DNA of 64,000 bases from a bacterium (GTDB lineage: Bacteria > Armatimonadota > UBA5829), in contig JAJFVF010000021.1 of NCBI GenBank assembly GCA_021371935.1, positions 62,001 to 126,000 of the forward strand, in the 5' to 3' direction. Position 1 is the first letter of the stretch, and each line of letters opens with the position of its first letter. The notes below the pieces were generated by a model that saw nothing but the letters and a program-made list of their open reading frames with translations, did not search any database and had not been told where the DNA came from. Positions 10,116 to 63,520 of this stretch are shown one piece after another. The translations under genes and the position numbers were made by a program.

Positions 10116-10192
10116 ATGAAACTTTCGCTGAGGTTTGTTTACTCCAATAAAACTGAACTGTTCCCCAAAATTGTCGGTCTACACTATATGAC

Positions 10193-10262: not shown

Positions 10263-10383
10263 TTGCTATATCTAATTATAGAGCGAGATGAAGATTACGG
10301 CAAATAGCGTAGAACTCTTCATCCCGCACAAAAATGCGATGTGATATAATATTTTCAATAATCTGAGCTTCAAGGTCATTAAA

Positions 10384-41040: not shown

Positions 41041-41088
41041 ACTCTACCCATTCCAGACTCTGTGTCTATACATTCACCGCGCAAAAAC

Positions 41089-42189: not shown

Positions 42190-42192
42190 AAC

Positions 42193-43080: not shown

Positions 43081-43082
43081 TG

Positions 43083-43257
43083 AACTGTCTATACCTGCTT
43101 CATTTCAGCTCTATACTTCTTCACACAAAATATTGCCGCACAGCTTATAAGCCTTGATATGACGGCAGCCACTACTTTGGCCAACCAAGAATGAGATTTG
43201 CGTATGAGCATCCCATAGCTTCCAAAGCTCTCTGCAATCTATTGCAATCTCCGTTAT
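43083..43257 (-). pseudogene. Chimeric scar of a tandem duplication (start of one GT4 joined to the tail of another)
   Basis: Read on the minus strand, 43257-43229 repeats the start of the gene at 42,189 (ATTGCAATAGATTGCAGAG), but its ATG has become ACG. At about 43,225 the text switches to EAMGCSYANLI and then KVVAAVISRLISCAAIF and KKYRAEMKQV, the C-terminal part of the gene at 44,154-45,443, with about 85 bases deleted inside. It marks the junction where the duplicated unit was joined and is not expected to give a protein. Confidence 0.8.
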
Positions 43258-44145: not shown

Positions 44146-44153
44146 TGAACTGT

Positions 44154-45443: not shown

Positions 45444-45447
45444 ATTA

Positions 45448-46287: not shown

Positions 46288-47696
46288 ACGTCCTTCCCAC
46301 TGAGCCTGATGTGCGCGATCGCCAAGCCCCAAAAGAGCCATGAATAAACTGTGGTTGCAAAAGTTGTCAGCCCCTCATTGTGATAGGCAGGGATTATATA
46401 GTCGCCAAAAAACGCCGTAATCGATATCCCAACGAACTGGCCGAGCACTGCCAATAAAAATGTCTTTGAAAAGCCGGGCGGCATCGCCCTATACCGTACC
46501 AGCATCCAGCGAAAACCCATCACAAGTATGGATAAAAATAAAATCAGCCCGGGAATGCCCGTCTCGGAAAGACATTGGGAATATGTGCCATGTGCAGATG
46601 TGTAGGCAGTGGTCCCCCACTTGTGGCCATAATAAAATGAGTTATAAGACCGATAGTTGCCAAGTCCGACACCCAGGGGGAAATGCGTCGCGTATTTCCA
46701 CGCACCAAGCATCAGAGAAAACCTGTCATAATCGCCGCCAGTCTTCGATTCCTCAACAACATTCCTATTGATAAACGGCCATGCAGCAATTACAACAACC
46801 ACAAAAACAATGCACGCAGCCCAAAACAGACGCTTGTTTTTTATTGCCAGAACGGCTGCCAGCCCGCATAACAGTGCAAGCCAACCCGACACCCAGGAAA
46901 CTACCTTGAAGCAGATTACATACAGGCACAACGCAACAACAACGCCGCAGAGAATACGCTGCCACCGCTTTTTATCAATATCAAGAGCCATTGCAGTAAA
47001 ATAACACGCAGGCAGCAAAGTCAGAAATGACCACCAGAGTGCAGAAACCGGCACTGGGTAGCCGACGAGAGCATTCAGCAGGTTGTAGATGCCGGGTATG
47101 AGCATAGCGATTGTTGTGATTTTGAGCCACTTCCTGTTGGATATCGTTGTGGCAACCATCACTAGAGCACCCGCACTTAAAATTCGCAGACCCAGATCGA
47201 CGATATTGACCATAGGATTTTGAAATATGCGATTGATATGAGGATCCCAGAATATGTATGAATTCACCACATTGACAATGCAATATGCTATATACAGGGC
47301 AAGCGGCACATAAAAACCTGATTTGACTCTGTCTTTGGGGATGCTGCCAAAGAGGTAACGGGCAAACCAGATGACGAGCAGAAAACCCAACATTACTTCA
47401 CTGATAAACACACCCTTGCCGGCGCCGGAACCACCAACCGCGATGTCAGGCGTCCGTCCCCAAGGCACAAATGCAACCAGTACATACACTACCAGAGCTG
47501 CCTCGAACTGCCACGCTACAACAACAACCAAAACTGCACCAAATACCGCAGCCGCCACATAGTATAAGTTGGCAGCAGTCGCGAATAATCCGAGTGCTAT
47601 CCCTCCGACTATTACCAGAACGATATTACGAACTAAGAACGATATACGCTCGGGAGTCCATGTTTCGCGGTCCGTTTTGTTGCTATGATCGGGCAT
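46284..47696 (-). CDS. O-antigen ligase/polymerase-like membrane protein (Wzy/WaaL family)
   Basis: 470 residues from the ATG at 47696 (AAGGA seven bases upstream). A longer frame overlaps the kinase gene and is rejected. About 11-12 membrane helices. The Wzy_C signature is GVGLGNYRSYNSF, then SAHGTYSQCLSETGIPGL in the large periplasmic loop. It either polymerises repeat units or ligates finished glycan to an acceptor. Because a Wzm/Wzt exporter is present and no Wzx flippase is seen, ligation is an open possibility. Confidence 0.8.
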   Translation of the reverse strand: MPDHSNKTDRETWTPERISFLVRNIVLVIVGGIALGLFATAANLYYVAAAVFGAVLVVVVAWQFEAALVVYVLVAFVPWGRTPDIAVGGSGAGKGVFISEVMLGFLLVIWFARYLFGSIPKDRVKSGFYVPLALYIAYCIVNVVNSYIFWDPHINRIFQNPMVNIVDLGLRILSAGALVMVATTISNRKWLKITTIAMLIPGIYNLLNALVGYPVPVSALWWSFLTLLPACYFTAMALDIDKKRWQRILCGVVVALCLYVICFKVVSWVSGWLALLCGLAAVLAIKNKRLFWAACIVFVVVVIAAWPFINRNVVEESKTGGDYDRFSLMLGAWKYATHFPLGVGLGNYRSYNSFYYGHKWGTTAYTSAHGTYSQCLSETGIPGLILFLSILVMGFRWMLVRYRAMPPGFSKTFLLAVLGQFVGISITAFFGDYIIPAYHNEGLTTFATTVYSWLFWGLAIAHIRLSGKDV

Positions 47697-47706
47697 TAAA
47701 CAATCC

Positions 47707-48786
47707 TTAGTCCAGCATCGTCGCCAAAGATATGGTTTTGGTATATGCCTTTCGACCATGTCGCATGGGTTGAACGCCTCGACCATCGCGATTTGTAGCC
47801 CATGTAACAAGACCGCGGAAATCAAGACGACAAGGCAATACACGGAACCCGGCACTCTTTATAGCAGACTCCACATTTCTAGTGTTTTCCGAACCGCAAA
47901 GGAATGTGATACTTCCGCCTCCACCGGCACCATTGATCTTGCAGCCCATAGCTCCTGTCTTGCGAGCAACATCTTCAAGCTCTTCGGTCTTATCATTAGA
48001 TATATCCGAATGCAGTTGCTTCTGTGCAGCGTTGTTTACGTTCATGATTTCGGCAAGCTCTACAAAATCTCCACGCATCAAGGCGCTTTTTGCATACAAC
48101 GGCGTCTCCCGCAAAATATCCATTGCGCGAACCGTACGCACGGCTCCTGATTCATAATCCGCTATGACCTTTTTATGCACATCACCGGACAGATGAGCTT
48201 CACCTGTATAAACAAGCAGAAGTCTGCTCTCCAGCTCAAGACAGATATCCTCAGACAGCCGCACCGGTGAAGAGCTGACAGACGGATACGGATCGATCGT
48301 ATGAAGACATACACCACCGGTCGCGGAGGCCACTTGATCCTGAACACCACTTTGAATGCCGAGCTCCTCAGTCTCAAGTTTATGAGCAAACGCAGCAACC
48401 TCATGTGGAGTCAAATGCATGTCCGCCAGCACTGCAAGAGCACCTATCAACGCAACCGAAACCGCTGCCGAACTGCCGGTGCCGCAGCCAGGAGGAACAT
48501 CTGAATATACTCTGATATCCACCCCATCAACTTCAGTAACATTAAGAGCGGCTTTTAATAGATCATGTTTGCCGTCATAGAGCACAGCCGAAAGATCCGG
48601 GATATCAATTGCTTCACCGTAGTCTTGAGCAACAATACTTGCACCCGGTTTTTCACGCGGCATAATTATTACCTTGGCATATAAATCAACTGCAAAATTA
48701 AGCACCCTACCATTGCCAGCAAACCATGTATCCGTCCAACCGCCAAAATCCAGTATACGGGCTGGCGCTATCGACTTTACAATCAT
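47707..48786 (-). CDS. GHMP-family sugar kinase (HddA/fucokinase-like)
   Basis: 359 residues from the ATG at 48786 with GGAAG seven bases upstream. Motif 1 is APARILDFGGWTDTW, the ATP loop is VPPGCGTGSSAAVSVAL (about 99-115), and motif 3 is GAGGGGSITFL (about 290). Relatives phosphorylate D-glycero-D-manno-heptose 7-phosphate, L-fucose or similar sugars at C1 to prepare nucleotide-sugar donors. The exact sugar is not resolvable here. A promoter-like pair lies upstream, so it may start a sub-operon. Confidence 0.82.
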   Translation of the reverse strand: MIVKSIAPARILDFGGWTDTWFAGNGRVLNFAVDLYAKVIIMPREKPGASIVAQDYGEAIDIPDLSAVLYDGKHDLLKAALNVTEVDGVDIRVYSDVPPGCGTGSSAAVSVALIGALAVLADMHLTPHEVAAFAHKLETEELGIQSGVQDQVASATGGVCLHTIDPYPSVSSSPVRLSEDICLELESRLLLVYTGEAHLSGDVHKKVIADYESGAVRTVRAMDILRETPLYAKSALMRGDFVELAEIMNVNNAAQKQLHSDISNDKTEELEDVARKTGAMGCKINGAGGGGSITFLCGSENTRNVESAIKSAGFRVLPCRLDFRGLVTWATNRDGRGVQPMRHGRKAYTKTISLATMLD

Positions 48787-48850
48787 GCTCACACTTCCAT
48801 TAAGGTTATTGTTTTAAAGCGTCATTCTTCATACTCTACATTATACTATT

Positions 48851-48878
48851 ATTATTCCAAACAACCGACCAGTGTCAA
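48851..48878 (-). promoter_or_regulatory. Internal promoter before the sugar kinase gene
   Basis: On the minus strand a perfect TTGACA (overlapping the TGA stop of the upstream GT4) is followed after 16 bases by AATAAT. The 88-base gap is the largest between clearly functional genes in the glycosyltransferase run. Confidence 0.45.
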
Positions 48879-50080
48879 CTAGATATGTGAGCCTGACACG
48901 TCGACTCCACGATATCAACAAACGATTGTCCCAAAGCCAACCACGAATACCGTTCTTCTACGAGTTTTCTTGCATCGGCTGCCATTTCAGCCGCCATCGA
49001 TTCATCATTCAAAAGACGCAGGATGCAATCAGCAAAATTTTGTGGCGTATCCGCAAGCAGCAGGTGCCTGCCATCCACACCATCTATCCCCTCGGCTCCA
49101 ATGCTGGTCGATACTACCGGCACGCCTGCCGCCATTGCCTCAAGTATCTTCAGCCGACTGCCGCCGCCCTGACGCAGTGGGACAACGCAGAGCGCACTGG
49201 ATGCCAAAACATCTCGAATGTCGTTGACATATCCTGTAAACTCAATGCCTGGACAGTCTGATATCCCTCTAAGGTCGATACCTGTTGTGCGCCCGGTAAT
49301 TCGCAGCTTTATGTCCCTCATGCTCTGGATGAGCAATGGATATATATCGGACGTAAAGTATCTTACTGCATCAAGATTCGCCCTAAATGTCACTGCGCCA
49401 TTGTATATAAGTGTCGATTGCTCAGAATGCCGGTTTGCTGGGTCATAGTGGTCAGTGTCCACCCCGTTTGGAACGACCTCAAGGTTTCTCAGATCGGGTG
49501 CAGCCTCCAGCATCAGCTCGCAGTCTCCATCCGAGACCATCACGACACTATCGAACGAACGGCATACACCGCTTTCCCAACGTGCAAACTTCTTCCATCC
49601 GGCATCGTAACGTAGCCTTTTCAACGCTCCGTCGATGTTTGCTGCGTTGCGGCGAAGAACGGCATATTCACAGTTGTGCTCATCCAATATGCAGGGTATA
49701 TCAAGCGGACGAGAGACATATTCAACCACACCCAAAGTAGATGCGATCACTACATCCGGCTTGATCTCATTTAGCACTCTTCCGACAGATGATCTCACGG
49801 CGGGATCATAAATATCAACCATCGAACGAGGTCGACTCGATAGATAACCAAGCATCGATTTGAAACTGCCCGGCTTGAACCATCGGGATGGATGCAATGA
49901 AACAACATTACATATATCGCTCAAATACTTCACATTGACCGGGTCCGAATCATCCTGAAGCAAAGACACGAGATATACCTCATGCTTATTTGACAATGCC
50001 TTAATGAGCTGATATGTGCGAATCCTGGAACCATTGTCAGCCGGGTACGGAAACCACGCAGCAACAAAGAGCACTTTCAT
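48875..50080 (-). CDS. GT4-family glycosyltransferase
   Basis: 401 residues from the ATG at 50080, inside the stop of the upstream gene (ATGA). KVLFVAAWFPYPADNGSRIRTYQLI is close to the exosortase-associated GT4 at 34,002-35,216. DEHNCEYAVLRRNA and VPLRQGGGSRLKILEAMAAGVPVV follow. The C-terminal half is nearly collinear with that gene (VVSTSIGAEGI-GRHL), so the two are paralogues within the locus. Confidence 0.87.
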   Translation of the reverse strand: MKVLFVAAWFPYPADNGSRIRTYQLIKALSNKHEVYLVSLLQDDSDPVNVKYLSDICNVVSLHPSRWFKPGSFKSMLGYLSSRPRSMVDIYDPAVRSSVGRVLNEIKPDVVIASTLGVVEYVSRPLDIPCILDEHNCEYAVLRRNAANIDGALKRLRYDAGWKKFARWESGVCRSFDSVVMVSDGDCELMLEAAPDLRNLEVVPNGVDTDHYDPANRHSEQSTLIYNGAVTFRANLDAVRYFTSDIYPLLIQSMRDIKLRITGRTTGIDLRGISDCPGIEFTGYVNDIRDVLASSALCVVPLRQGGGSRLKILEAMAAGVPVVSTSIGAEGIDGVDGRHLLLADTPQNFADCILRLLNDESMAAEMAADARKLVEERYSWLALGQSFVDIVESTCQAHISS

Positions 50081-51210
50081 CCCGAACACCTCTGCTTTGC
50101 AGTCATTTCAGAATATAACTCCCAAGTCCTGCGCAGCATTTCATCTTCCGTAAACCGCGCAAGCGCCTCACCACGGCCAGCATTGCCCATCTCAAAGCGC
50201 ATATCGGGTCGATCCAGCAACAATTTGACGGCTTTGGTCAGAGCATCATCGTCCTTGGGTTCGACCAGGATGCCGGTCTTGCCGTCAATCACAGCCTCAT
50301 CGACTCCGCCGACTCGTGTGGCTATCACAGGCAGCCCAGCCATCATCGCCTCGACAATCGTAAACGGGAAACTCTCAAACGCAGACGGCAGCACAAAAAT
50401 GTCCAGCATCCGCAGTATATCGCATGTATCGCTGCGCCACCCGCAAAAACGAACCCTGTCGGCAATGCCCAGTTCATGCGCAAGCCTCTGCAATTCGTCC
50501 AGCAGACTGCCGGTGCCGACAATGCATAAAGCCGCATTTCGATGTTCTATACTCACACTTTGAAAAGCATGGAGCAGAGAGGATATGTTCTTCTGCCTCT
50601 CCAGGCGAGCGACTGTGCCGATTATCACATCATCTTTACCGATATGCAGCTCATCACGCAATTCACGGACTTTGCTGTCGGGTGTGACCCAGTCAGTGAC
50701 GCCGTTATATATAGTACGCACCTTTTCGGCATCCACGCCACGCTCAATCAAAAAACGACGTGCGGACTCGCAGACTGTGATCACCATATGTGCACACCCA
50801 AGCGCCGTACGCCCAGATATCTTCTCACGCACTGTTTTGGATATAGTCGGCAGGTGAGTCGTTAACACGACAGGCGCCCTTGTAAACAGTCGAGCCGCTA
50901 TTATATCTATAGTCGAAGAGCAGGGATTGGCAAGGTTAAAGTGAAACAAGTCACAATCCAGGCCCTTATAGAATTTGATCGAGTGAGCAAGCGACACAGG
51001 GTGGATGCTGTAGCCGTTAGTAGACAATGGCTCGACATGCGCGCCATTTGTTCTTCGCGCAAACTCCTCGGCTGCCGTGCCCGGCGGCATATAGACCCGT
51101 ATGCCCTCACCCGACGGACAGCCCACCAGTTTGGATAGATATCGCTCGCCTCCCCCAAACTCGCCCGTGTTCGCTATATATGCAATGGATAACGGCCTGT
51201 TTGCTGTCAT
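50077..51210 (-). CDS. GT4-family glycosyltransferase
   Basis: 377 residues. IAYIANTGEFGGGERYLSKL (acceptor loop), TTHLPTISKTVREKI, IGTVARLERQKNISSLL and LPSAFESFPFTIVEAMMAGLPVI mark a GT-B retaining enzyme of the capsular/EPS type. It starts three bases after the preceding stop and overlaps the next gene by four. Confidence 0.88.
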   Translation of the reverse strand: MTANRPLSIAYIANTGEFGGGERYLSKLVGCPSGEGIRVYMPPGTAAEEFARRTNGAHVEPLSTNGYSIHPVSLAHSIKFYKGLDCDLFHFNLANPCSSTIDIIAARLFTRAPVVLTTHLPTISKTVREKISGRTALGCAHMVITVCESARRFLIERGVDAEKVRTIYNGVTDWVTPDSKVRELRDELHIGKDDVIIGTVARLERQKNISSLLHAFQSVSIEHRNAALCIVGTGSLLDELQRLAHELGIADRVRFCGWRSDTCDILRMLDIFVLPSAFESFPFTIVEAMMAGLPVIATRVGGVDEAVIDGKTGILVEPKDDDALTKAVKLLLDRPDMRFEMGNAGRGEALARFTEDEMLRRTWELYSEMTAKQRCSG

Positions 51211-51213
51211 CTC

Positions 51214-52119
51214 CTACCGCCGTATTGCCAAATGGAAGTGAGTCTTGGCCCTGCTCCAGTGTTCATGACTTACCAGCCCCAGCAATGCATGCCTAGTCAT
51301 CTTGAGCATACCGGACCCGAACATCAACAATTTGTAAGCCAGAGCATAGAAAATGCCCCTGTGAATTCTATAATACAGGCTGCGCCCCTTGCGCATCATG
51401 ATCGCCTTACCGAGCGAAGTGCTGCTCATGCCCCCTATATGAATCAAACTCACGGAAGGCAGATAATGAGCCTGCCATTGGGTGCGGGCAAGCCTGGCGC
51501 AAAAGTCCAAATCCTCATCATAGAGCCTGAACGTCTCATCAAAGAGACCGGTCTCGTCAATTACCTGCCGCCGAACAAGCCAGCATGTCGCCCATAAAAA
51601 CTGCACAGGCATCGAGACATCGTGATTGCAGTCCTGCATACGCACATGCTCGATCAGACGGTCAGGCTTAAAGAGTTTATCCAGAAAAGTGGAACGGACC
51701 TGCCAGGCCAGTTCATACTTTATCGTCGGGAACAACTCGCATGAAAGCTGGATGTCACCATCCGGCCAGAGCACCTTGGGACCGACTACACCTACTTCAG
51801 GATGCTCCTCCAAATATCTCACCATAGGACCGAGCAGGTCACATGTAAGTACCGTATCCGGGTTCAGGAGCATTATATAATCCGCATCAGACTTAAGCGC
51901 CGCCAGATTATTGGCTCTTCCGAAACCCAGGTTCTTGGTCGACCTTATAAGATTTACATTTGGATAATCTGATTCGACCATATCCGCGCTGCCATCCGTG
52001 GAGGCGTTGTCAACTATCCAAATGTCGTAATCGCCCGTCTGGGACGCTATAAGCGAGTTTAGACAGTCTTTTAACAAATCTTTTGTATTGTAGCTGACAA
52101 TGATAATCGATACGCTCAT
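51214..52119 (-). CDS. GT2-family glycosyltransferase (rhamnosyltransferase-like)
   Basis: 301 residues. SIIIVSYNTKDLLKDCLNSL, IVDNASTDGSADMV, GFGRANNLAALK and MLLNPDTVLTCDL are followed by RLYDEDLDFCARLARTQW. It is a paralogue of the GT2 at 45,448-46,287 with the same plan. Start overlaps the upstream GT4 stop (ATGA). Confidence 0.88.
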   Translation of the reverse strand: MSVSIIIVSYNTKDLLKDCLNSLIASQTGDYDIWIVDNASTDGSADMVESDYPNVNLIRSTKNLGFGRANNLAALKSDADYIMLLNPDTVLTCDLLGPMVRYLEEHPEVGVVGPKVLWPDGDIQLSCELFPTIKYELAWQVRSTFLDKLFKPDRLIEHVRMQDCNHDVSMPVQFLWATCWLVRRQVIDETGLFDETFRLYDEDLDFCARLARTQWQAHYLPSVSLIHIGGMSSTSLGKAIMMRKGRSLYYRIHRGIFYALAYKLLMFGSGMLKMTRHALLGLVSHEHWSRAKTHFHLAIRR

Positions 52120-53351
52120 TTCACACCCAAAGACCGATATGCCTCCTGCAGGCGGTCTGTTACTTTATCCCATGTGTGATACTCGATGGTCTTCTTTTTG
52201 CCGTTGGCACCCAATCTTGCGCGCAGATTAGCGTCACCAAGCAGCTTAAGCAGAGCTTGCGTAAGGTCGCTGCTGTTTTTTGGATCAACAAGAATGCCGT
52301 CCTGGTTATGCGATATGACAGTCTCCACCGCACCACCACGACAGCCTATGACAGGCTTTGAACGCATCCAAGCCTCAAGATAGACTATCCCAAATGACTC
52401 TGACCACGAAGGCATTGCAAACACATCGCAGGCGTCAAATATGTCTGCCTTTTCCGAATCGTCAAATGAACTGCACCTGATGACCCTTTGAGCCAAACTC
52501 TTATCTTCAGTCAAAATCCTGTTCAATTGTTCACTGGCCGATGAGCGCACTCCCGCTATAACAAGAAACGCCTCTGGATACTCAGACCATACTGCCCGCA
52601 TAGCTTCGACAAGCACCAGCAGACCTTTATGAGCCACTTCCGCTCCAACAAACAACACTATCGGAGCATCCGCAGGTATGCCATGTTTTGAACGGAAACG
52701 CAGGCCGTCTGCATTGTCGAAATCCGTCGGGTTTACACCACATCCTGCGACGCTGATCTTGTCTGGATCGATGGCAAAATCGGATATAAGCACATCGCGC
52801 TCAAACGTAGTGCTGGGGCAAACATGGTCTGCTGACCTCAAAATTCGCGCTATGTTCGCACGCTCAGTATTAAATGGATTGTCTGTATGCAACCCAGGAA
52901 TAACAACATAAGGCACACCGAGTTTGTCCGCAATCCTGCGCCCGTATACCACCATCATAGAGGGAGTGAGACCGGCACATACTATATCGAAATCGCCGCG
53001 AGCCGCTTCGCCTATGCCACGAAGTATGGGACCGTCATACCAGGTACGCAGCCAGTCGCTGCCGGGCAATCTGTATTTCCAAGAATAATGAACCAGACGC
53101 CAGTAGCTTTTTGAAGAATGCCTGCGACAGACAGGCAGCCGCTTTACTTGCACACCATTGATAACTTCCTTGGCAGCAAGATTGTTCACCGGCAGGCTCT
53201 TGACCCAAAATGCCCTGTAATCGAGCGCGTTGGCTGTAATGACGCTCACTTCATGACCCCGGCTTGCCAGAGTCTCTGAGAGCCTCTGGAAATGCAGAGC
53301 CGAACCGCTGTAGGAAGGCGCATAGATGGGCGTCAGGTGCAATACTTTCAC
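52116..53351 (-). CDS. GT4-family glycosyltransferase
   Basis: 411 residues from the GTG at 53351, in a GTGA overlap with the upstream GT2 stop. The open frame extends 51 codons further but there it is a shadow of that GT2. VLHLTPIYAPSYSGSALHFQRLSETL, VIPGLHTDNPF, LFVGAEVAHKGLLVLVEAM and MPSWSESFGIVYLEAWMRSKPVI with its E-x7-E motif are the key blocks. Confidence 0.85.
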   Translation of the reverse strand: MKVLHLTPIYAPSYSGSALHFQRLSETLASRGHEVSVITANALDYRAFWVKSLPVNNLAAKEVINGVQVKRLPVCRRHSSKSYWRLVHYSWKYRLPGSDWLRTWYDGPILRGIGEAARGDFDIVCAGLTPSMMVVYGRRIADKLGVPYVVIPGLHTDNPFNTERANIARILRSADHVCPSTTFERDVLISDFAIDPDKISVAGCGVNPTDFDNADGLRFRSKHGIPADAPIVLFVGAEVAHKGLLVLVEAMRAVWSEYPEAFLVIAGVRSSASEQLNRILTEDKSLAQRVIRCSSFDDSEKADIFDACDVFAMPSWSESFGIVYLEAWMRSKPVIGCRGGAVETVISHNQDGILVDPKNSSDLTQALLKLLGDANLRARLGANGKKKTIEYHTWDKVTDRLQEAYRSLGVK

Positions 53352-54277
53352 GAGGTCACCTTCCCCATTCTCCATGCCGCCCATGCACGCCGCGATGTCA
53401 GTGCGGCAAACGTGCCCGATATGTTGCCGGCTATTGTGACCAGGATGAGCCATACTCTCGGCAAAAAACTGGAGTTTGGCCGAAGCCATCTTACCTGACG
53501 CCATACGGCGGTCAGATAAGATGTGCGCAGCTTGAGCCTATCTTTTCTATAGTACTTGAGCAGAAAATAGACGTGGTTTCTGGCGCCATAAAATATTTTT
53601 CGCGGATCGGCCAGATCCCTGGTGACTGTTTCCCGTGGAGCCCTCATGTGTGTAACCACCGCCCAAGGACAAAAAACAACTCTCTTGCCCAAGCGCAACA
53701 CACCCACGCAGATGTCTGTCTCCTCTCGGATGTTATCGCCGGTGTAACCAGGGTCAAAACCGCACAATTGCTCGAACACTTCTCGCCTGAAGGACATGTT
53801 GCAGCCTTTGACATGATCGACATCAATCAGCTCTTTGTGGGTTGTGGCGAAGTTTTGAGACAAATCACCATTGGGCAAAACCCGGCCAACCGGCTCGTTC
53901 GGGTTCCATTCGGTGCCCGGTTCCTCTATGCCTCCACCAACACAGCCGATAGTATCATCGCAATACACTGCGGCTAAAGCATCCATCCAACCGGCATGGA
54001 CTACTGAGTCATCGTCAAGAAACGCAATGACATCTGCATCACATCGGGCAGCCCCAATGTTTTTCGCCTGGGGACGCTGGTCGCAGCCATTATCGAAGTA
54101 TACATACTCCACATTCGGATAATTGGCTGTAATCTCTCTGGTCTGACTGCCGTCTGAAGCATCGACTACCACCACCCTTGACTGCTCAGGCACATGCTCG
54201 GCGAGCGAAGCCAAACACCGTGCTATCATCTCAGGTCTATTGCGAGTGACCACAACAATATCAATTGTTACGCTCAT
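53348..54277 (-). CDS. GT2-family glycosyltransferase
   Basis: 309 residues. IDIVVVTRNRPEMIARCLASL, VVVDASDGSQTREI and IAFLDDDSVVHAGW (metal site) are followed by REETDICVGVLRLGKRVVFCP. The hydrophobic C-terminal stretch may touch the membrane. GAGG precedes the ATG. Confidence 0.86.
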   Translation of the reverse strand: MSVTIDIVVVTRNRPEMIARCLASLAEHVPEQSRVVVVDASDGSQTREITANYPNVEYVYFDNGCDQRPQAKNIGAARCDADVIAFLDDDSVVHAGWMDALAAVYCDDTIGCVGGGIEEPGTEWNPNEPVGRVLPNGDLSQNFATTHKELIDVDHVKGCNMSFRREVFEQLCGFDPGYTGDNIREETDICVGVLRLGKRVVFCPWAVVTHMRAPRETVTRDLADPRKIFYGARNHVYFLLKYYRKDRLKLRTSYLTAVWRQVRWLRPNSSFLPRVWLILVTIAGNISGTFAALTSRRAWAAWRMGKVTS

Positions 54278-54288
54278 AGTAATAGACC

Positions 54289-55272
54289 TCAGTAATGCTT
54301 GTCCCGCTTATGTGTAAAAATACGCTTGCATGCGCGAGCTAAATCATAGCCGAACGGGAAAGATAAACGCAGTGAGTGTTCCAAAGCATGTGCAAACTGA
54401 CCATGATGACCGCGCGAAACCCATAACTCGGCCAATGCATATCTCCTGGCCTGCCGGATATCTCCACTACGCTCATATTCGCCGGAAAGGAGATGGCAAT
54501 ATGCCGATATGCCGCGGTTGAGCTGTTTTGTATAACGCCGAGGAAGACAGTTGCGCATCTTGAGGTGATCGCTCATCCCAGATATGTACTTCTTGCGCGC
54601 CGACAGAGGCCCATGCACCCCGCCGGGATGTATACGGTGGTCCGCCATGATCTCGTCGACTCTCCTGATATCACCATGCATTGCATTGAGTATGTGCACT
54701 GACCAGTCACCAACACCTATATCATAAAACCATGACGGTATCTCATCGAGAAAGCCATTGCGAAAAACAACCGTGCAAGTGCCCAGGAAGTTATAGACAA
54801 GCAGATCGTCCAACGTCATAACATCTCTGGCTGTGACTCCATACAACGAATCCGGTGGATATACCGGAAAATCATGCTCGACATCCGATCCCTCAACAAA
54901 ACATTTCATCGGGTGCCAGCATATCGAACACGTCGGAGCAGCTTCCATCAAATCGACCTGCTTTTGCAGCTTACTCGGCGAGGTCCAATAGTCATCTCCC
55001 TCAAGCAGCGCGACATATTCTCCCTTGCAAGCATGAAGAGTGGCAACCAGGTTGGGAAGCATACCTATGTTATGCTCCGGCAGCAGCGGATGGATAATAT
55101 CGGGGCAGCGGCTCTGATAATTGCGGACTATTTCGCGCGTGCCGTCGGTCGAACAGTCTTCTCCGATTATAAGCTCATAATCGAAGTCGGTCTCTTGCGT
55201 CAGGACGCTCTCGATTGCCTGCGCAATGAACTTCTCGTGGTTGTATGTTATCATGCAAACACTGAGTTTCAT
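54289..55272 (-). CDS. GT2-family glycosyltransferase
   Basis: 327 residues. LSVCMITYNHEKFIAQAIESVL, IIGEDCSTDGTREIV and the LEGDDYWTSPSKLQKQV metal-site block define an inverting GT-A enzyme. A C-terminal region of about 100 residues, rich in Arg and His, is specific to this subgroup. Its ATG overlaps the aminotransferase stop by one base (TAATG). Confidence 0.87.
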   Translation of the reverse strand: MKLSVCMITYNHEKFIAQAIESVLTQETDFDYELIIGEDCSTDGTREIVRNYQSRCPDIIHPLLPEHNIGMLPNLVATLHACKGEYVALLEGDDYWTSPSKLQKQVDLMEAAPTCSICWHPMKCFVEGSDVEHDFPVYPPDSLYGVTARDVMTLDDLLVYNFLGTCTVVFRNGFLDEIPSWFYDIGVGDWSVHILNAMHGDIRRVDEIMADHRIHPGGVHGPLSARKKYISGMSDHLKMRNCLPRRYTKQLNRGISAYCHLLSGEYERSGDIRQARRYALAELWVSRGHHGQFAHALEHSLRLSFPFGYDLARACKRIFTHKRDKHY

Positions 55273-56495
55273 TATCTTGAAGCGCCGCTTTCACCCGAAG
55301 ATAGCCGCTCGGTTATTTGACGCCCGTTTGCAACAGCAGTCCTGATTATACGGCAAATTTGTTTTATCTCGTCTGTCCCCACGGCTGTTCCCGTCGGCAG
55401 CGACAAGACCCTCTCGGAGAGTTTCTCAGTCTCAGGCAGCAGGAAACCGGCATGCGGGAAGTAAGACCGATATGGCTCCATTCTGTGGCAGCCGGGATAG
55501 AAATATCTCCTGGCTATTATATTCTCCGCATGCAATACATTCAGCAGCAGGTCTCTGCTGATGGTCGCAGCGTCCTCGTCGACCTCCAACACCATATACT
55601 GATAATTTCTCCGCTCGGTGTCGCCATAATCGATAACACTTATACCAGGGACTGCATCCAACTCGCGCTTGTAACACTCGTAGTTCGAGCGGTTCACGGC
55701 AATGAACTCGTCCAGGCTTTCCAGCGAAGTCAGTCCCATCGCCGCACAGACTTCGTTCATCTTGCCGTTTGTGCCGATGTAGATCACATTGTCATAACCT
55801 GCAAACCCGAAGTTCTTCATCAGTCGGATTTTGGCCGCCAGATCGTCATTGTTTGTAACGACTGCACCGCCTTCGAGTGTGTTGAAGAATTTGGTGGCAT
55901 GGAAACTGAATACTTCGCACTCACCAAAGTTGCCTATCATCCGACCATCATGCGAACAGGCCAGAGCATGAGCCGCATCAAACATCAGCTTGATATGATG
56001 CTCATCGGCAATTGCCTGCAGAGTCGCAGTGTCGCATGGCCGCCCCCATAGATGCACGCCTATAATACCGCTGGTCCTTGGCGTAATCATACGCTCCACG
56101 CAATTTGGATCGATGCAGTGGGTCGCTGGATCGATATCGCAAAAAACCGGCGTTATCTCCTGCCACTGCAGCGCATGAGCAGTGGCGATAAAGGTAAACG
56201 ACGGAACTATGACCTCGCCTGTCAGTCCTAATGCACGTATCGCTATCTCGAGCGCAACAGTCGCATTGCACATTGCTATGCAGTGACGTGCGCCTAGCAT
56301 ATCGGCAATGCGCGACTCAAACTCCTGAACATATTTGCCATTGTTTGTGAGCCATCGTCTGTCCAACAGATCGTTTATTCTAGCCATCAGTTGATCGCGA
56401 TTGCCTACATTGGGCCGACCGACATGCAGCGTTTTCGAGAACGCAGGTTTTCCACTAAAGATCGCTAAATCAACTGATGCTTCATTCGATATCAT
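55272..56495 (-). CDS. DegT/DnrJ/EryC1 PLP-dependent sugar aminotransferase
   Basis: 407 residues from the ATG at 56495, which overlaps the stop of the acyltransferase gene; GAGGAG lies upstream. FSFHATKFFNTLEGGAVVTN contains the PLP lysine and matches QdtB/VioA/FdtB-like enzymes that aminate a nucleotide-linked 3- or 4-keto-6-deoxysugar. DAAHALACSHDG holds the PLP-contacting Asp. Paired with the acyltransferase next to it, it probably makes an acylated amino-deoxysugar donor. The position of the amino group is not decided. Confidence 0.88.
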   Translation of the reverse strand: MISNEASVDLAIFSGKPAFSKTLHVGRPNVGNRDQLMARINDLLDRRWLTNNGKYVQEFESRIADMLGARHCIAMCNATVALEIAIRALGLTGEVIVPSFTFIATAHALQWQEITPVFCDIDPATHCIDPNCVERMITPRTSGIIGVHLWGRPCDTATLQAIADEHHIKLMFDAAHALACSHDGRMIGNFGECEVFSFHATKFFNTLEGGAVVTNNDDLAAKIRLMKNFGFAGYDNVIYIGTNGKMNEVCAAMGLTSLESLDEFIAVNRSNYECYKRELDAVPGISVIDYGDTERRNYQYMVLEVDEDAATISRDLLLNVLHAENIIARRYFYPGCHRMEPYRSYFPHAGFLLPETEKLSERVLSLPTGTAVGTDEIKQICRIIRTAVANGRQITERLSSGESGASR

Positions 56496-57160
56496 CAAAA
56501 ACTCTCCTCGCACTTGCGCACTGCCCGCGCAGGAACACCATATGCTACTACACCCGAACCGATATTCTTCACCACTACCGAGCCCGCGCCTATCAACGTA
56601 CGCTCACCAATTGTTACACCGTCGGCAACAGATGTACCTATTCCTATCCAGGACGAATTCCCAACACTTACACGCCCGGCGATATGAACTCCTGGGCATA
56701 TGTGCGTGCAATCACCGACCGTGCATTCATGATCGACACTTGCCGAGGTGTTTATTATCACACTCTCGCCAATATTGCACGATGGACCTATCACTGCGCC
56801 CGCGCATATGACCGCACCTGCCCCAATATGGGTCTCCTGCGCTATTATTGCACTCGGGTGAATCAGTGTCGCAAGCTCAAAGCCCTTTTCGCGAGCAATA
56901 TCGGCAGCACCGGCCTTGGCAGAGCAATTACCGAACCCAAATGCGATAAACTTTACCGACTGCGCATGCAGGCCCTCCAGTTGCTCCCTGCCGCCCAGAA
57001 CATGCGCACCGCACATAATCTCACCAGCACGAGCCGGATTATAATCATCCAGGAAACCAACCAATTCATAGCAGCCGCACAGGCGCACGATGTCTGCAAT
57101 AACCATCGCATGCCCGGAAGCGCCCCATATGACTATCTTCTCTTTTTTTTCAGGCAACAT
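56495..57160 (-). CDS. PglD/NeuD-like sugar O- or N-acyltransferase
   Basis: 221 residues from the ATG at 57160, overlapping the Wzt stop. The N-terminal Rossmann-like substrate domain (KIVIWGASGHAMVIADIVRL) is followed by a left-handed beta helix with hexapeptide repeats (IGAGAVICAGAVIGPSCNIG, then GVHIAGRVSVGNSSWIGIG). The conserved catalytic His appears in VDHECTVGD. It should acetylate the amino sugar made by the neighbouring aminotransferase using acetyl-CoA. Confidence 0.88.
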   Translation of the reverse strand: MLPEKKEKIVIWGASGHAMVIADIVRLCGCYELVGFLDDYNPARAGEIMCGAHVLGGREQLEGLHAQSVKFIAFGFGNCSAKAGAADIAREKGFELATLIHPSAIIAQETHIGAGAVICAGAVIGPSCNIGESVIINTSASVDHECTVGDCTHICPGVHIAGRVSVGNSSWIGIGTSVADGVTIGERTLIGAGSVVVKNIGSGVVAYGVPARAVRKCEESF

Positions 57161-58466
57161 CAATTTGCGGCTCTCTGAGTTGGTCTACATCTAAATTCGC
57201 AGACTCGATGAGGTCGGTATGCCACTCCATACGCGGCCTCACGGCACCAGGAAACTTGCCATGCCAACTGCCTCTTCGGCTTATGTCATCACCCACATCG
57301 AAGACGAGCACATCCTGCGCTTTGTATATGACATTACACTGATCCTGCACAACAAGCGCCTCAACACGGTGCATGCCGTCATTCAACAGGTCCGCTGGAA
57401 TTATGCATGTGCTGCGGAAAAGACCACGAGGGAACGGCTTACCATGCCAATTTGGCTCGTCCTCGGGCAATGTGTTGAAAACTATAATGCCGTCCTCATT
57501 ATAAATATGCAGGCTGAGATTCAAATAAGCGCCCGGCTGGTTATTCCAATACTCGAACTCCAATATAATCGGTTTGTTTATTACAAGCGAGCAATCCGAA
57601 TCGGAGCTCTCCGGCCTGACACTCACACTCCTGATGCGCACCTTGTCATTTCCGGGAGCACCGGACATATCATCCCAAACCTGCTTTGCAACCGATGAGA
57701 CGGATGTCTGAAGATATTTGGAAGCCACAGTGCCGGCCTCACCAATTGTTCTGACTGCTCCCCCATCAAGCCATACCGCACGATTGCACAGCGTCTGCAC
57801 GGCGGTCATATTGTGGCTGACAAAGAGGATCGTGCGGCCTTCACGAGAAACATCCCCCATCTTGCCTAAACACTTCTTCTGAAACTGAGCGTCGCCAACC
57901 GCCAACACTTCATCGATTACAAGAATCTCAGGCTCCAGATGAGCTGCAACCGCAAACGCAAGACGTACATACATCCCTGAGGAATACCGCTTGACCGGCG
58001 TGTCGATAAACTTCTCGATCTCAGAAAACGCTACGATCTCATCATATTTGCGGTTGATCTCTGATTTTGTCATGCCCAGGATCGCACCGTTGAGATAGAT
58101 GTTCTCCCGGCCAGTGAGTTCTGGGTGAAAGCCGGTGCCCACCTCCAGTAGACTGGCTACTCGACCATTTATGCCTATGCGACCGGTTGTCGGCTCTGTA
58201 ATGCGACTTATCACCTTGAGCAGGGTCGATTTGCCCGCGCCATTGCGCCCGATAATTGCGACACGGTCACCCTGCTCTATGTCAAAAGATACGTCCTTGA
58301 GCGCCCAAAACTCCTCTTTGGAGGCCGGGAGCATGGAGCCTTTTTTGCGGCTGGATATTATCCTGTGAAAGGCGTCGGTGACCGCATCGCGCAATGTGCC
58401 CGATGCCCTTTGATGACCGATAATGTATCTCTTGCCTATGTTCTCAATATTTACTGCTGTGCTCAA
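57150..58466 (-). CDS. wzt: Polysaccharide ABC exporter ATPase with C-terminal carbohydrate-binding domain (Wzt-like)
   Basis: 438 residues from a TTG with GAGG seven bases upstream. The ATPase has GRNGAGKSTLL (Walker A), YSSGMYVRLAFAVAAHL (export-type signature) and ILVIDEVLAVGD (Walker B). Residues about 275-410 form a Wzt_C-type beta-sandwich (DCSLVINKPIILEFEYWNN), which in O9a-type systems reads the capped end of the glycan before export. So the finished polymer probably carries a non-reducing end modification. Confidence 0.9.
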   Translation of the reverse strand: MSTAVNIENIGKRYIIGHQRASGTLRDAVTDAFHRIISSRKKGSMLPASKEEFWALKDVSFDIEQGDRVAIIGRNGAGKSTLLKVISRITEPTTGRIGINGRVASLLEVGTGFHPELTGRENIYLNGAILGMTKSEINRKYDEIVAFSEIEKFIDTPVKRYSSGMYVRLAFAVAAHLEPEILVIDEVLAVGDAQFQKKCLGKMGDVSREGRTILFVSHNMTAVQTLCNRAVWLDGGAVRTIGEAGTVASKYLQTSVSSVAKQVWDDMSGAPGNDKVRIRSVSVRPESSDSDCSLVINKPIILEFEYWNNQPGAYLNLSLHIYNEDGIIVFNTLPEDEPNWHGKPFPRGLFRSTCIIPADLLNDGMHRVEALVVQDQCNVIYKAQDVLVFDVGDDISRRGSWHGKFPGAVRPRMEWHTDLIESANLDVDQLREPQIDVA

Positions 58467-58475
58467 CTGTCATCC

Positions 58476-59339
58476 TCAAATTATGTCCGCAAAGGTCTTT
58501 TCGGTCTTCCTAAAATATCGGATGCCGCCTATAAGTAATAGCCCAACCAGAACAATCGACAAAATAAAACCAGGCATATATAAATCTGACTTTCCGCCCA
58601 AAATCGCCCACCGAAAACCATCAATAACCCCAACCATTGGGTTAACAGAATAAAGTAAGCGCCATTTATCAGGAACTACACTGCTGCTGAAACCTACCGG
58701 CGACACATAAAGACCAAACTGCACCACAAACGGCACTACATGCTGGAAATCTCTATAACGCACATTCAGCGCTGCTACCCATAACCCCACGCCAAACGCC
58801 GTAAGAACTGCCATGACGGTAAAAAGCGGGAGCAATGCAAAACGCCAATCGGGCATGAAATGGTAATATGCCATCAGAACTACCAGAATGGCGAACGATA
58901 TAAGGAAGTCAACAAGGTTTACTATGACAGCACTCGCAGGCACAATCATGCGAGGAAAATATATCTTGGATATAAGCTGGGCATTGCTTACAACACTTGT
59001 ACTGCACGAAGCAAATGCTCCGGCAAACATCTGCCAGGGCAGCAGAGCAGCAAAAACCAATATTGGATATGGAACGCCATTAGAGGGCATCTTCCCAAGA
59101 CGGCCAAACACCACTGTGCAGACCACCATGGTCAGAAAAGGACGTAAGATACTCCATGCAATACCTATGGCCGTCTGTTTATACCGGACTAAGATATCGC
59201 GCCACGAAAGGAAAAAGAAAAGCTCTCGATAAGACCACAGATCGCGCCAGTAATGGTGTTCAGTCCGTCCCGACTCGATTACCAGACTGAAACTACCATG
59301 TTTGTGCTTTCCATCAGTTTTATCAACCACTTGCTGCAT
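58476..59339 (-). CDS. wzm: Polysaccharide ABC exporter permease (Wzm-like)
   Basis: 287 residues, six membrane helices of the ABC-2 type. YRELFFFLSWRDILVRYKQTAIGIAW is the amphipathic N-terminal region and first helix of Wzm/TagG. LLPWQMFAGAFASC and VSPVGFSSSVVP follow. It pairs with Wzt encoded downstream to move lipid-linked glycan across the inner membrane. Confidence 0.9.
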   Translation of the reverse strand: MQQVVDKTDGKHKHGSFSLVIESGRTEHHYWRDLWSYRELFFFLSWRDILVRYKQTAIGIAWSILRPFLTMVVCTVVFGRLGKMPSNGVPYPILVFAALLPWQMFAGAFASCSTSVVSNAQLISKIYFPRMIVPASAVIVNLVDFLISFAILVVLMAYYHFMPDWRFALLPLFTVMAVLTAFGVGLWVAALNVRYRDFQHVVPFVVQFGLYVSPVGFSSSVVPDKWRLLYSVNPMVGVIDGFRWAILGGKSDLYMPGFILSIVLVGLLLIGGIRYFRKTEKTFADII

Positions 59340-59353
59340 ATTCGCGCATCTTC

Positions 59354-61696
59354 CTAGTCCGGGAAAGGATTCTCCTGGCTGTCCGCTTGCTTATCAGGTC
59401 TACCACCTTCGCCAGACACTTTTGCAGAAGTTGCTTCAGGAAGCGCATCCACGTCTTTTTTGCCGTTGCCGGACTCAAGCGCGGTATCCGGCGGCACAAT
59501 TGCAGAACTCGCGTAATAGTGTGAATAGAAATAACAACTGTCGATATTCTCAGGAGCCAAACGATTGACTACCACACCGAGAATATTTGCCTTTGCCCTG
59601 CGCAGCAGATCGCGAGTCTGGGTCTCAGTCCCACGAGGAACCATGTTCGCCGATACTACCATCACAACCGCATCGACCCAACTTGCGAGCATCGGCCCAT
59701 CACTGAATACTATCGCGCTGGGAGTGTCAAAAAGCACCAGATCGCAGTGCTCCTCGAGACGCTTTACCAAATCCTGCATCCTGTCGGAACCAAGCAGTTC
59801 AGACGGGTTCAGAGGCTGCGGACCCGCCGGGACCACTATCAGGTTCTCGACTTCGGTCTGTTGGAAAGCATCGGTCAGATTATCCTTGCCCTGTAACAAA
59901 GTGCTCAAGCCGGCCTCATTGGGAACATTAAAGAACTTGTGAAGGCTCGGACGGCGCATATCGGCATCGATCAAAATTATACGCTTGCCAATCTGCGCAA
60001 GAGCTATGGCCAAATTACAAATTGTCGTCGTGCCGCCTTGACCCGGACGGCCTGTCGCAACCATCAACGTCTTGAACGGCGAGTCCCTCAACTCAAATAG
60101 GATGTTGGTCCTCAATATCTTATATGACTCCGCCATTGGCGAAATAGGATACATATGAGTGAGCTTCGGCAGCATGCCGTCGCGGCCGGTCAGTTTGGGT
60201 GTCAAGCCGATCACAGGCAGCTCAAGCAGCTTCTCGACATCCGCTGCATTTCGCATGCGTGTATCTATCGAGTCGAGCCAGATAACCGTTACTATGCCAA
60301 GAACCAGCGAGAGAATGAAACCATATACGACAAGGACTTTCCGCGAAGGACCCTGCTTGAAAGGACCGGTAGCCTCCACAGACCAACTAAATGGAATAAT
60401 TGAACCAGTCCTTGTGGATTCCTTTTCCGCCACAAGCGCCTGATCATACTTGTCCGAGAGCATCTTGAACGTGTTCTCAGCCTGATTGTACTCAGTCATC
60501 AACTCGGCAAGCTCCGGCTCCGCCTTGGCAAGACGATCTACATTGCCTCTCGCAGCGGCAAGACTCGCATTAGTCGAAGCAAGTTTCGCCTTGGCAGTCG
60601 CAAGAGAATACTGAGCATCAGAACGCTTGCGCATCAGCTCCTTATGTATTTCGTTGATTGCAGGCTGAGAGTAGCTGCTCCCTTCACGAGCAATCTGACC
60701 TTTCAAAGATATAACACGTGCCTGAGCGGCTTTGTATACATCATGTGCCGGCTTATAGCGTTGCGCAATCAGCCTAAGATCAGACTCGGCCTGAGCAAGC
60801 TCATCCTGAAGCTTTTGCACCTTGGGGTTCATCTCAGACGGTAGAGACTGTTGCGATACAAGAGGCTGGACCTTTAGTTGAGCGTCAATGTCGCGCAAAG
60901 CCGCTTCGGCTTCCCTGACTTCAGAAGAAGCATTGTCCCGCACCGCCTCAAGATTTGCCAGTGAGCCGATCGAAGACTGCGTTTCGGCATCTACCGAAAG
61001 AACATTATGAGAACTCTTATAGTCCGCTATTTTGAGATGCAGTTTCTGTAGGCTGGCCTTCGCCTCCTGCCTGCTGGACTCGAGAAACTTTGCGTATTTG
61101 CGAACGTCCTCGCGGCTCTTTTCCTGATATGATTTCGCAAATGACTGGGCAACCGCATTAGCTAAATATGGAGCGTCTGTGCCATTGGGCATTCTAACAA
61201 CCACTCGAATTATATCAGTGGTGGTACCGTTTTGACCTATACTCGGATTTTGTACCGGAGTAACCTCTAGGATATCCTGCCAGTCCTTGAATTGCAGCAG
61301 CTTGCCTCGAGTCTGTTCAACACGAGTTACCTGCCTATACGGCATCTTATTCGCAGTTTCAGCACCCATACTCTCAGTTATCGTTTGCTTCTGATCCTCA
61401 ATCGAATCGGCCAGAAAGTCGAGTGCACCCTGATATACTTCATAGCTTTGAGCTAGTATTATCAAATTGCTTAGTATGACACCCCGATCGGGAGCGGCCA
61501 CGCGGTCATTATCATTGGCTGTGGTCGTATTGCCACCCTGCATTACCTGTGCTGTAGGCGACACCAGAGCCGTGCCTTCATACACAACCTTTGGCTTTGG
61601 CGCTGCAGCCGCAATTACCAAAAGAGTAACCGCTACAATGCCGACTATGATCCACTTGCGTGCCTTTATAACTTTGATTAGGTACCAAAAGTTCAT
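59354..61696 (-). CDS. Wzc-like co-polymerase with BY-kinase domain lacking the Walker A lysine
   Basis: 780 residues. Wzz domain: helix 1 at 15-32, a long coiled coil (about 190-420), helix 2 at 450-470. Cytosolic kinase domain from about 500: the P-loop region reads GRPGQGGTTT, where BY-kinases have GEGKST, so the invariant Lys is Gly. Walker A-prime (ILIDADMRRPSLH) and Walker B (LVLFDTPS) are intact. A short tyrosine cluster (YFYSHYY) lies near 740. It probably controls chain length and couples to the Wza-like channel at 28,907. Kinase activity is doubtful. Confidence 0.85.
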   Translation of the reverse strand: MNFWYLIKVIKARKWIIVGIVAVTLLVIAAAAPKPKVVYEGTALVSPTAQVMQGGNTTTANDNDRVAAPDRGVILSNLIILAQSYEVYQGALDFLADSIEDQKQTITESMGAETANKMPYRQVTRVEQTRGKLLQFKDWQDILEVTPVQNPSIGQNGTTTDIIRVVVRMPNGTDAPYLANAVAQSFAKSYQEKSREDVRKYAKFLESSRQEAKASLQKLHLKIADYKSSHNVLSVDAETQSSIGSLANLEAVRDNASSEVREAEAALRDIDAQLKVQPLVSQQSLPSEMNPKVQKLQDELAQAESDLRLIAQRYKPAHDVYKAAQARVISLKGQIAREGSSYSQPAINEIHKELMRKRSDAQYSLATAKAKLASTNASLAAARGNVDRLAKAEPELAELMTEYNQAENTFKMLSDKYDQALVAEKESTRTGSIIPFSWSVEATGPFKQGPSRKVLVVYGFILSLVLGIVTVIWLDSIDTRMRNAADVEKLLELPVIGLTPKLTGRDGMLPKLTHMYPISPMAESYKILRTNILFELRDSPFKTLMVATGRPGQGGTTTICNLAIALAQIGKRIILIDADMRRPSLHKFFNVPNEAGLSTLLQGKDNLTDAFQQTEVENLIVVPAGPQPLNPSELLGSDRMQDLVKRLEEHCDLVLFDTPSAIVFSDGPMLASWVDAVVMVVSANMVPRGTETQTRDLLRRAKANILGVVVNRLAPENIDSCYFYSHYYASSAIVPPDTALESGNGKKDVDALPEATSAKVSGEGGRPDKQADSQENPFPD

Positions 61697-61901: not shown

Positions 61902-62675
61902 CTAATGCTTTGTGACTTTTCGCCTTATGATCCCTATCATAGTCAGACCAATCGAGCCAAGGAGCATCGTCGGCACCTCAGGCACGTCTGGCGGCGAGTA
62001 GTTAGGCACAAAGAAAATCAGATCCTGCTTACTTGAACAGACAGCCAGATAGTAGGAATGTGTGGAACCGTAACCATCCACAGCATTGGCAACTGCATCA
62101 TCATAGTAGCCCTGTGCAGTGGAAGCAATACTTGACCTGATTGCTCCACTGTAGTCGCCGCTGATGTTGCCCAAGGCAAAGTTGCCCATTCCTAAGTCCC
62201 TATTGATATCCCATGTGCCGTCACTGATAGCTTCCCATACGGCTACCTGGATCGCTGACTTCTGGATCTTCAGAGTCGGTGAGTCATCACTGGTCTTAGT
62301 GTCCGTCCACTCTGTGTTGTGCTGGACCATGTAAACAACCCTGTCCCAGGCAGTCGAGTTTATCACCGTAGTCGGTGTGCCGGTCACAATATCCGCTTCC
62401 CACGTCGTACCCCAGTTGATGGTCCCCGACAAGTCGATACACAGCATGTTTGTATTTGTGGTCGTGTTCATTACAGTATCGTATATCTGGATGTACACCG
62501 GACCGATAGCTACATTCTGTGACTGTGCTAGACTTGTCCAGATTGTCCCGTTGTATGACGGATAGTAGTTGGAATTATTGACTAATGTCAACTGATAACG
62601 ACCACTAGCCGTCGCGGCAACACTTATAGCCAGGATCAGGGCAGCCGCTAGTAATATTAGCCTAGAAATCTTCAC
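61902..62675 (-). CDS. PEP-CTERM-like (VPEVP-type) surface protein
   Basis: 257 residues from a GTG with AAGGAGGGG upstream. Signal peptide residues 1-23. The body is rich in Thr, Asn and Tyr. YMVQHNTEW with AIQVAVWEAISDG resembles the thioester-like region seen in some surface proteins and PEP-CTERM proteins. The C-terminus has VPEVP, a hydrophobic helix (TMLLGSIGLTMIGII) and RRKVTKH. It lies 35 bases after the sugar transferase gene and is co-transcribed with it. Exosortase should process it. Confidence 0.85.
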   Translation of the reverse strand: MKISRLILLAAALILAISVAATASGRYQLTLVNNSNYYPSYNGTIWTSLAQSQNVAIGPVYIQIYDTVMNTTTNTNMLCIDLSGTINWGTTWEADIVTGTPTTVINSTAWDRVVYMVQHNTEWTDTKTSDDSPTLKIQKSAIQVAVWEAISDGTWDINRDLGMGNFALGNISGDYSGAIRSSIASTAQGYYDDAVANAVDGYGSTHSYYLAVCSSKQDLIFFVPNYSPPDVPEVPTMLLGSIGLTMIGIIRRKVTKH

Positions 62676-62710: not shown

Positions 62711-63499
62711 TCAACATGCTCCCCGTTTCAATAGAACGGCTGGCACGGTCGATATTATTATCCAAAGGTCAAGCATTATCGATCTCTGATCAATATATTG
62801 CATGTCCATTCGGACGCGCTCCTCATATGAGGTCTCACTGCGCCCGCAGGTCTGCCAAATACCCGTTATGCCGGGTGTGACTGTCTTGAACTGCTCAACT
62901 TGCGGCCCGTATTTCTCTACCTCGTCATTATGGATCGGCCTCGGACCCACAAAGGTCATGTTCCCCAGCAGCACGTTCAAGAGCTGCGGAAGCTCGTCAA
63001 GACTCGTTTTACGCAGGAACTTGCCGATGTTCGTGATGCGCGGGTCCTGCTTGAGTTTACAGTTTATGTAATACTCGCTCTTTAGATCGTCGTCCCGATC
63101 GAGAATCTGTTCAGCCCCGTCAACCATGGACCGAAACTTGAACATGTCAAAGCTATTGCCGCCCTTGCCGATAACTCTTCGCCTGAAGAATATCGGACCG
63201 GAACTGTCCAGCCTGACCAATATGGCTATTATCGCAAATAATGCGCTTGAAAGCAGCAATATCGCTGATGCCAACCCAATGTCAATAGTTCTTTTTACAA
63301 CAAAATACGCAACTCCCGCACCACTGCGTATTTTCGCAAGTCGCCTGCGCCGCTTCTCAACCGCTATGACTGCAGCAATACCCATGGGAGCCAATATACA
63401 CGCAGATGTCTCCGGCACTGAGTGACCCCCCGCCGGCAGCCCAAATGCAGCACCCGCCACTAGCAACAACATTACTGTCGCTATAGTCAAACTTAACAA
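62711..63499 (-). CDS. Initiating phospho-sugar transferase with an N-terminal PEP-CTERM-like module
   Basis: 262 residues, probable TTG start (GGAG close upstream; exact start uncertain). From about residue 67 it is a bacterial sugar transferase: [15 protein letters not shown] (membrane hairpin), [37 protein letters not shown] and [12 protein letters not shown]. It moves a sugar phosphate to undecaprenyl phosphate to start glycan synthesis. The N-terminus is unusual: a signal-peptide-like helix (about 4-20), VPETS at 28-32, a short helix (32-47) and KRRRR at 49-53, the same tripartite order as the exosortase signals of the two PEP-CTERM proteins here. Confidence 0.9.
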
Positions 63500-63520
63500 A
63501 CTCCACCCCCAACAGATACT

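Follow-up and report, generated by a model that had tools for sequence, protein, structure and literature searches.

A PEP-CTERM-like module ahead of the sugar transferase of an exosortase-linked polysaccharide cluster in Armatimonadota

The tie between exosortases and exopolysaccharide loci dates from 2006. Loci shared by exosortases, PEP-CTERM tails and PF02397 enzymes are already known (Haft et al. 2006, PMC1569441). The sugar transferase described here is encoded in a 64,000-nucleotide stretch of DNA, referred to below as the window, from a member of the Armatimonadota (lineage UBA5829; assembly GCA_021371935.1, contig JAJFVF010000021.1). Like the PEP-CTERM proteins (PMC1569441), it displays a leader-like helix, a PE motif, a single hydrophobic helix and a basic cluster; its gene belongs to an exosortase/exopolysaccharide locus and is directly followed by that of a real PEP-CTERM protein. 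Unlike them, it carries the signal before an enzyme predicted to be cytosolic, some 210 residues from the C-terminus.

The closest described transferases share the catalytic part of this protein and differ in what precedes it. The small monotopic PglC (PDB 8g1n, 8e37), whose alignment begins at residue 59, shares the catalytic domain together with its re-entrant helix but has neither a secretion leader nor a PEP module. The large monotopic WbaP and WcaJ (PDB 8t53, 30us) possess the closest catalytic domain and the chain-initiating role, whereas their four-helix bundle and PF13727 domain (PMC10942596) are replaced by the PEP module in the window protein, where PF02397 is the only Pfam family above cut-off over all 262 residues and PF13727 was not found. 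The TIGR03013 family (EpsB_2) of XrtA/PEP-CTERM systems likewise comprises sugar transferases of exosortase clusters, but the window protein scores 155.5 bits against a cut-off of 393.35, through its catalytic part only, and is not a member. Tripartite sorting signals that lie within a protein and are followed by a further part are known from MXAN_5598, where an internal MYXO-CTERM precedes an outer-membrane barrel with OmpA domains (PMC11980579), and, by citation, from an ArtA substrate whose tripartite structure is reported to lie away from the C-terminus (J Bacteriol 2017). Both cases differ in their sorting enzymes and signals, and the downstream part of MXAN_5598 is not a glycan-initiating enzyme. 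A literature search, with most subscription papers outside its reach, returned no account of a sugar transferase that bears a PEP-CTERM internally or at its N-terminus. An earlier note on this DNA had spoken of an undescribed system, which is too strong, since loci with exosortase, PEP-CTERM and PF02397 are known (PMC1569441); the novelty is the fusion of a PEP-CTERM-type signal with a PF02397 enzyme, both components being known.

The window transferase runs from a signal-peptide-like helix through VPETS, a second helix and KRRRR into the PF02397 domain (Table 1), and its hydropathy maxima fall at residues 1-21 and 31-48. The leader is hydrophobic, and inspection of the sequences revealed A-x-A-like ends in relatives. 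The PF02397 score of 203.7 bits lies above the curated cut-off of 27, and the nearest solved structures are WbaP (1.7e-46, from residue 67) and PglC (1.4e-27, from residue 59). The stretch SLDELPQ is identical across nine orthologues, the Asp-Glu dyad and the conserved core thus being present; from what is known of PglC, we take the Asp-Glu at residues 168-169 to be the catalytic dyad position of the family. An AlphaFold2 model built from three sequences reached a mean pLDDT of 36.6 and was given no weight.

Table 1. Coordinates of the transferase gene, its parts and the surrounding locus within the window
Feature	Position	Strand	Remarks
Sugar transferase of the small monotopic phosphoglycosyl transferase type, PEP-CTERM-like module at N-terminus	62711..63499	-	262 codons, TTG start
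Ribosome-binding sequence GGGGGTGG	63503..63510	-	Kept among relatives
Transferase residues 1-20, signal-peptide-like helix	63440..63499	-	17-19% pairwise identity, weak sequence conservation
Transferase residues 28-31 VPET, PEP-type motif	63407..63418	-	P and E invariant in 12/12 module proteins
Transferase residues 32-48, hydrophobic helix (LAPxG conserved)	63356..63406	-	Glu (residue 48) precedes basic cluster in most members
Transferase residues 49-53 KRRRR, basic cluster	63341..63355	-	Two Arg invariant
Transferase residues 69-256, PF02397 catalytic domain with own membrane helix	62732..63295	-	Pfam, E 2.2e-60
Transferase residues 168-169, Asp-Glu within KTSLDELPQ	62993..62998	-	Sequence
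PEP-CTERM protein, tail VPEVPTMLLGSIGL...RRK (VPEVP)	61902..62675	-	35 bp downstream of transferase; same neighbour in four relatives
PEP-CTERM protein, tail VPEASTMLLGFAGL...RIKK	30429..30965	+	Sequence
Cluster exosortase	35849..36715	-	PF09721 1.4e-59; TIGR02602 above cut-off
EpsI-type exosortase-associated protein	35235..35879	-	TIGR02914 above cut-off
Glycan cluster between transferase and exosortase	37978..61696	-	Profile matches
Tyrosine autokinase (Wzc-like)	59354-61696	-	In glycan cluster
ABC exporter of glycan (Wzm/Wzt-like)	57150-59339	-	In glycan cluster
O-antigen-ligase-like protein	46284-47855	-	In glycan cluster

With a profile built from the N-terminal 125 residues of the transferase, the module was found before PF02397 in 12 of 291 Armatimonadota genomes, all of one class; among the matches listed, the others in these genomes cover the transferase part or reach slightly upstream of it and have no PEP part. 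Nine of the 12 genomes belong to the home family of the window, G022 to another family, and G019 and G021 to a third. The N-terminal extensions of about 70 other PF02397 proteins of the class and phylum were also read and hold no PEP-helix-Arg module, on which ground the module was rejected as a general property of transferase N-termini; the pattern applied to these extensions missed the module of L017, owing to trimming of the extension, and other comparisons recovered it. Besides Armatimonadota, the search took in Chloroflexota genomes and, beyond these two phyla, plasmids and viral contigs. In a sample of 400 Chloroflexota genomes the matches listed (E 1e-22 or better) include no module, all being without a PEP part, and the viral-contig scan returned catalytic domains only, all module-free. 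Plasmid matches from Jannaschia and Roseobacter that apparently reached into the module proved on reading to be without leader or PE motif, a verdict that covers these two and not the match from Indioceanicola. The genomes of L035 and L036 are metagenome-assembled, as most of the others may be.

The module proteins occupy two branches in a tree built from 52 catalytic domains, one uniting the nine home-family members with G022 (100/96) and the other joining G019 with G021 (99/87); one origin for both is not firmly excluded (AU test of a single module origin, p = 0.078). The nearest module-less sister is the transferase of G009, whose joint group with the module clade is supported at 98/92. A cut-off copy of the module had been suspected in G013, but the transferase there is module-free.

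Selection on the module is evident from the pattern of change. The P, E, A, L and G residues do not vary among the 12 module proteins, nor do two Arg, and within the ten-member clade the codons of invariant module residues vary synonymously, never in amino acid. Pairwise identity in the clade amounts to 66-69% for the module and 62-71% for the catalytic domain, against 41-46% for the linker and 17-19% for the leader, and dN is 0.05-0.08 for the module compared with 0.06-0.13 for the catalytic domain, dS being near-saturated. The module is a real feature under selection, conserved like the catalytic domain and unlike the leader and linker. The sequence GGGGGTGG immediately before the TTG at 63499 is kept in three relatives, and L008 has ATG at the same codon. 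Because the change throughout the module is synonymous, without replacement of amino acids, the module is translated; a true start past residue 30, which the earlier note had set against its own reading, is excluded by this and contradicted by the kept GGGGGTGG. A pattern of PE, hydrophobic stretch and basic cluster, scanned over 1001 ORF frames (225,000 residues) of the window region and relatives, matched genuine C-terminal PEP-CTERM tails and these transferases only; in shuffled N-termini it occurs 23 times per 200,000.

The window module itself scores poorly, at 2.4 bits for its best segment, against a profile made from C-terminal PEP-CTERM tails, no NCBIfam PEP-CTERM model matches it, and it has two traits atypical of such tails, namely the Glu that precedes KRRRR and a conserved Pro within the helix. 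Its tie to PEP-CTERM therefore runs through relatives, above all G022, whose module is found by the same profile of C-terminal tails alone (genome-wide E 1.5e-5) and whose protein is 60% identical to the window transferase over 241 residues, module included; the profile comparison that had been suggested gave a significant match for the G022 module and a weak one for the window module. The module is moreover followed by 209-231 residues, and since it fails the defining C-terminal position the protein was not classed among the ordinary PEP-CTERM proteins.

The G022 transferase occupies a frame of 497 residues (L088 1676-3169, minus strand, contig 56), in which a secreted domain of about 200-210 residues with its own leader sits before the module. 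Seven stand-alone homologues of this ectodomain, up to 78% identical, occur in five genomes including G022, and every one of the seven ends in a C-terminal PEP-CTERM tail. Three canonical PEP-CTERM genes flank the fusion, and G022 possesses one exosortase, of a different type and only 32% identical to that of the window, which counts against the reading favoured below. Misassembly is unlikely because the join is in frame and falls exactly before the PE motif. The position of G022 within the home-family clade points to gene transfer. The claim of a PEP-CTERM-like module before a sugar transferase is thus borne out by 12 genomes, two tree branches, strong conservation and, in G022, a leader replaced by a PEP-CTERM ectodomain. 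That the resemblance arose by chance, or that a wrong start codon created a module that is not real, would accord with the TTG start and the low profile score in the window; the kept ribosome-binding site and start, the synonymous change within the module, its conservation across nine species, the specificity of the pattern and the homology to the G022 fusion refute both ideas, which were rejected as hardly conceivable.

The same fusion raises the thought that the arrangement serves a secreted N-terminal part, as a cleavable polyprotein in which an exosortase cut at the PEP motif would release the ectodomain for its normal sorting and leave the transferase on a leftover helix, the short forms being remnants that have lost their ectodomain. 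Indeed, a complete PEP-CTERM-type ectodomain stands before the module in G022, and sorting tags in mid-protein do work elsewhere (PMC11980579). Nine of the ten clade members, however, have a variable stub only, of about 5-10 residues between leader and VPE, and still conserve the module like the catalytic domain; with no cargo before VPE in these short forms, the module is, by this argument, conserved for the sake of the enzyme. In the tree, G022 is also nested among the short forms (98/86), which makes its ectodomain a possible newcomer, although the AU test does not reject the reverse order of gain and loss (p = 0.139). We regard the polyprotein as a rather unlikely explanation.

The transferase is the first gene of a cluster that extends over about 28 kb of a single strand, of which the exosortase and EpsI genes are the last, and it is the sole PF02397 gene found in that cluster, with four more elsewhere in the genome. 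Sugar-modifying enzymes and glycosyltransferases are encoded in the glycan cluster as well. The cluster exosortase has intact Cys, Asn-x-x-Arg and His motifs, as have its relatives, save for the His in one match that is cut short. As the earlier note had stated, both PEP-CTERM proteins of the cluster (61902-62675 and 30429-30965) have VPE tails and basic ends. Tails were compared within the genome of the window (G000), from these two proteins and from contigs 3, 8, 9, 11, 12, 13, 18 and 22: the two near the cluster exosortase read PEA or PEV followed by MLLG, and all others read PEP, the numbers being small. In the transferases, PE is followed by A, V or T throughout the ten-member clade; the module, having PEA, PEV or PET, therefore resembles the substrate tails of its own cluster, again on small numbers.

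An exosortase (PF09721) is present in 12 of 12 module genomes, and a module in an exosortase-free genome, which would have told against the proposed link, was accordingly seen in none of them (0/12). Orthologues of the cluster exosortase, at least 56% identical, occur in exactly 10 of the 15 home-family genomes, and the module is found in nine of these 10 and in none of the five without (Fisher 0.002, kinship ignored). Three home-family genomes without exosortase have no significant PEP-CTERM tail by the tail profile either; G005 and G013 (the latter 67% complete) have only a long exosortase, in a frame of 560-580 residues. The module transferase gene of G019, like that of G021, immediately precedes the genes for an exosortase and an EpsI-like protein. 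Orthologues lacking the module had likewise been named as adverse to the link, and one was found, that of G009, the sister of the module clade, in a genome that retains the cluster exosortase together with many PEP-CTERM proteins; since G009 keeps the exosortase without the module, the system can do without it. The module is also missing from many further exosortase-adjacent transferases of the class.

Were the module a plain membrane anchor, a two-helix hairpin whose PEP-like look is the relic of an old fusion no longer read by the exosortase, an invariant Pro-Glu and conservation like that of the catalytic domain would not be needed, and the leader helix does vary freely. The PE is, moreover, kept on both branches of the tree, and no module occurs in exosortase-free genomes. 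The weak match of the window module to PEP-CTERM profiles, its untypical Glu and Pro, and the N-terminal helices that large transferases of the family also bear (PMC10942596) speak for such an anchor, which we nevertheless judge quite improbable.

The reading favoured here, with a probability of roughly 0.6, is that the module serves the exosortase as a recognition signal, and possibly as a cutting site, and thereby links glycan initiation to protein sorting. The protein would be the chain-initiating phosphoglycosyl transferase of the exosortase-linked polysaccharide cluster, and its anchor would be a PEP-CTERM-type sorting signal placed before the enzyme rather than at the C-terminus. By analogy with the PEP-CTERM model (PMC1569441), the leader is predicted to take the N-terminus across the inner membrane, so that VPE would stand at the periplasmic face, the helix would span the membrane, and KRRRR and the catalytic domain would lie in the cytosol; the sequence thus supports the cytosolic side to which the catalytic domain had been assigned earlier. 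The cluster exosortase would recognise the module as it does the VPEAS and VPEVP tails, and would probably cut it. In G022 the signal would also bear a full secreted domain, which the exosortase would separate from the enzyme. The module is no less strictly conserved than the catalytic part, which makes a physical link between sugar-chain initiation and protein sorting probable. The module may dock the transferase at the exosortase, so that lipid-linked glycan would be begun where PEP-CTERM proteins are processed; alternatively, cutting by the exosortase may license the transferase. Control of initiating transferases by partner proteins has a precedent in EpsZ/EpsW (PMC12802240). More tentatively, and as a possibility that we would not favour, exosortase binding or cutting might switch on or position lipid-linked glycan synthesis, with that glycan as the joining partner of the PEP-CTERM proteins.

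The exosortase link to glycan initiation put forward in the earlier note fits most of these comparisons; beside the observed architecture, recurrence, conservation, co-occurrence and G022 ectodomain homology, we infer the binding and recognition, the cutting, the coupling and the purpose of the link. With a sorting signal and a glycan-starting enzyme in one polypeptide under selection, the relation of exosortase to glycan can be tested with a single protein. In annotation, PEP-type modules ahead of enzymes ought not to be written off as lacking a function. If the exosortase does act on the transferase, the latter would be, within the searches made, the first cytosolic enzyme to be described as an exosortase client, and it would connect the sorting of proteins directly, at the molecular level, with the synthesis of exopolysaccharide.

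Several features of these loci deserve mention in their own right. The cluster combines the ABC exporter and the O-antigen-ligase-like protein of the region 46284-59339 with an autokinase resembling Wzc, and no flippase was seen among the proteins scanned. Near the exosortase, a membrane protein encoded at 31037-32821 and kept in G002 and G009 has weak similarity (1.6e-4) to TIGR04154, the oligosaccharyl transferases linked to archaeosortase A, and a protein of 1020 residues with a C-terminal DUF11 domain is encoded at 37978-41040. The loci of G019 and G021 (L089 ~8592-11729 and L090 ~8227-11104, respectively) are compact and run from the module transferase through the exosortase and the EpsI-like protein to a polysaccharide export protein. 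Finally, G000 has two exosortases, of about 300 and 540 residues, beside its two classes of PEP-CTERM tail, which suggests that the two enzymes may divide their substrates by tail class.
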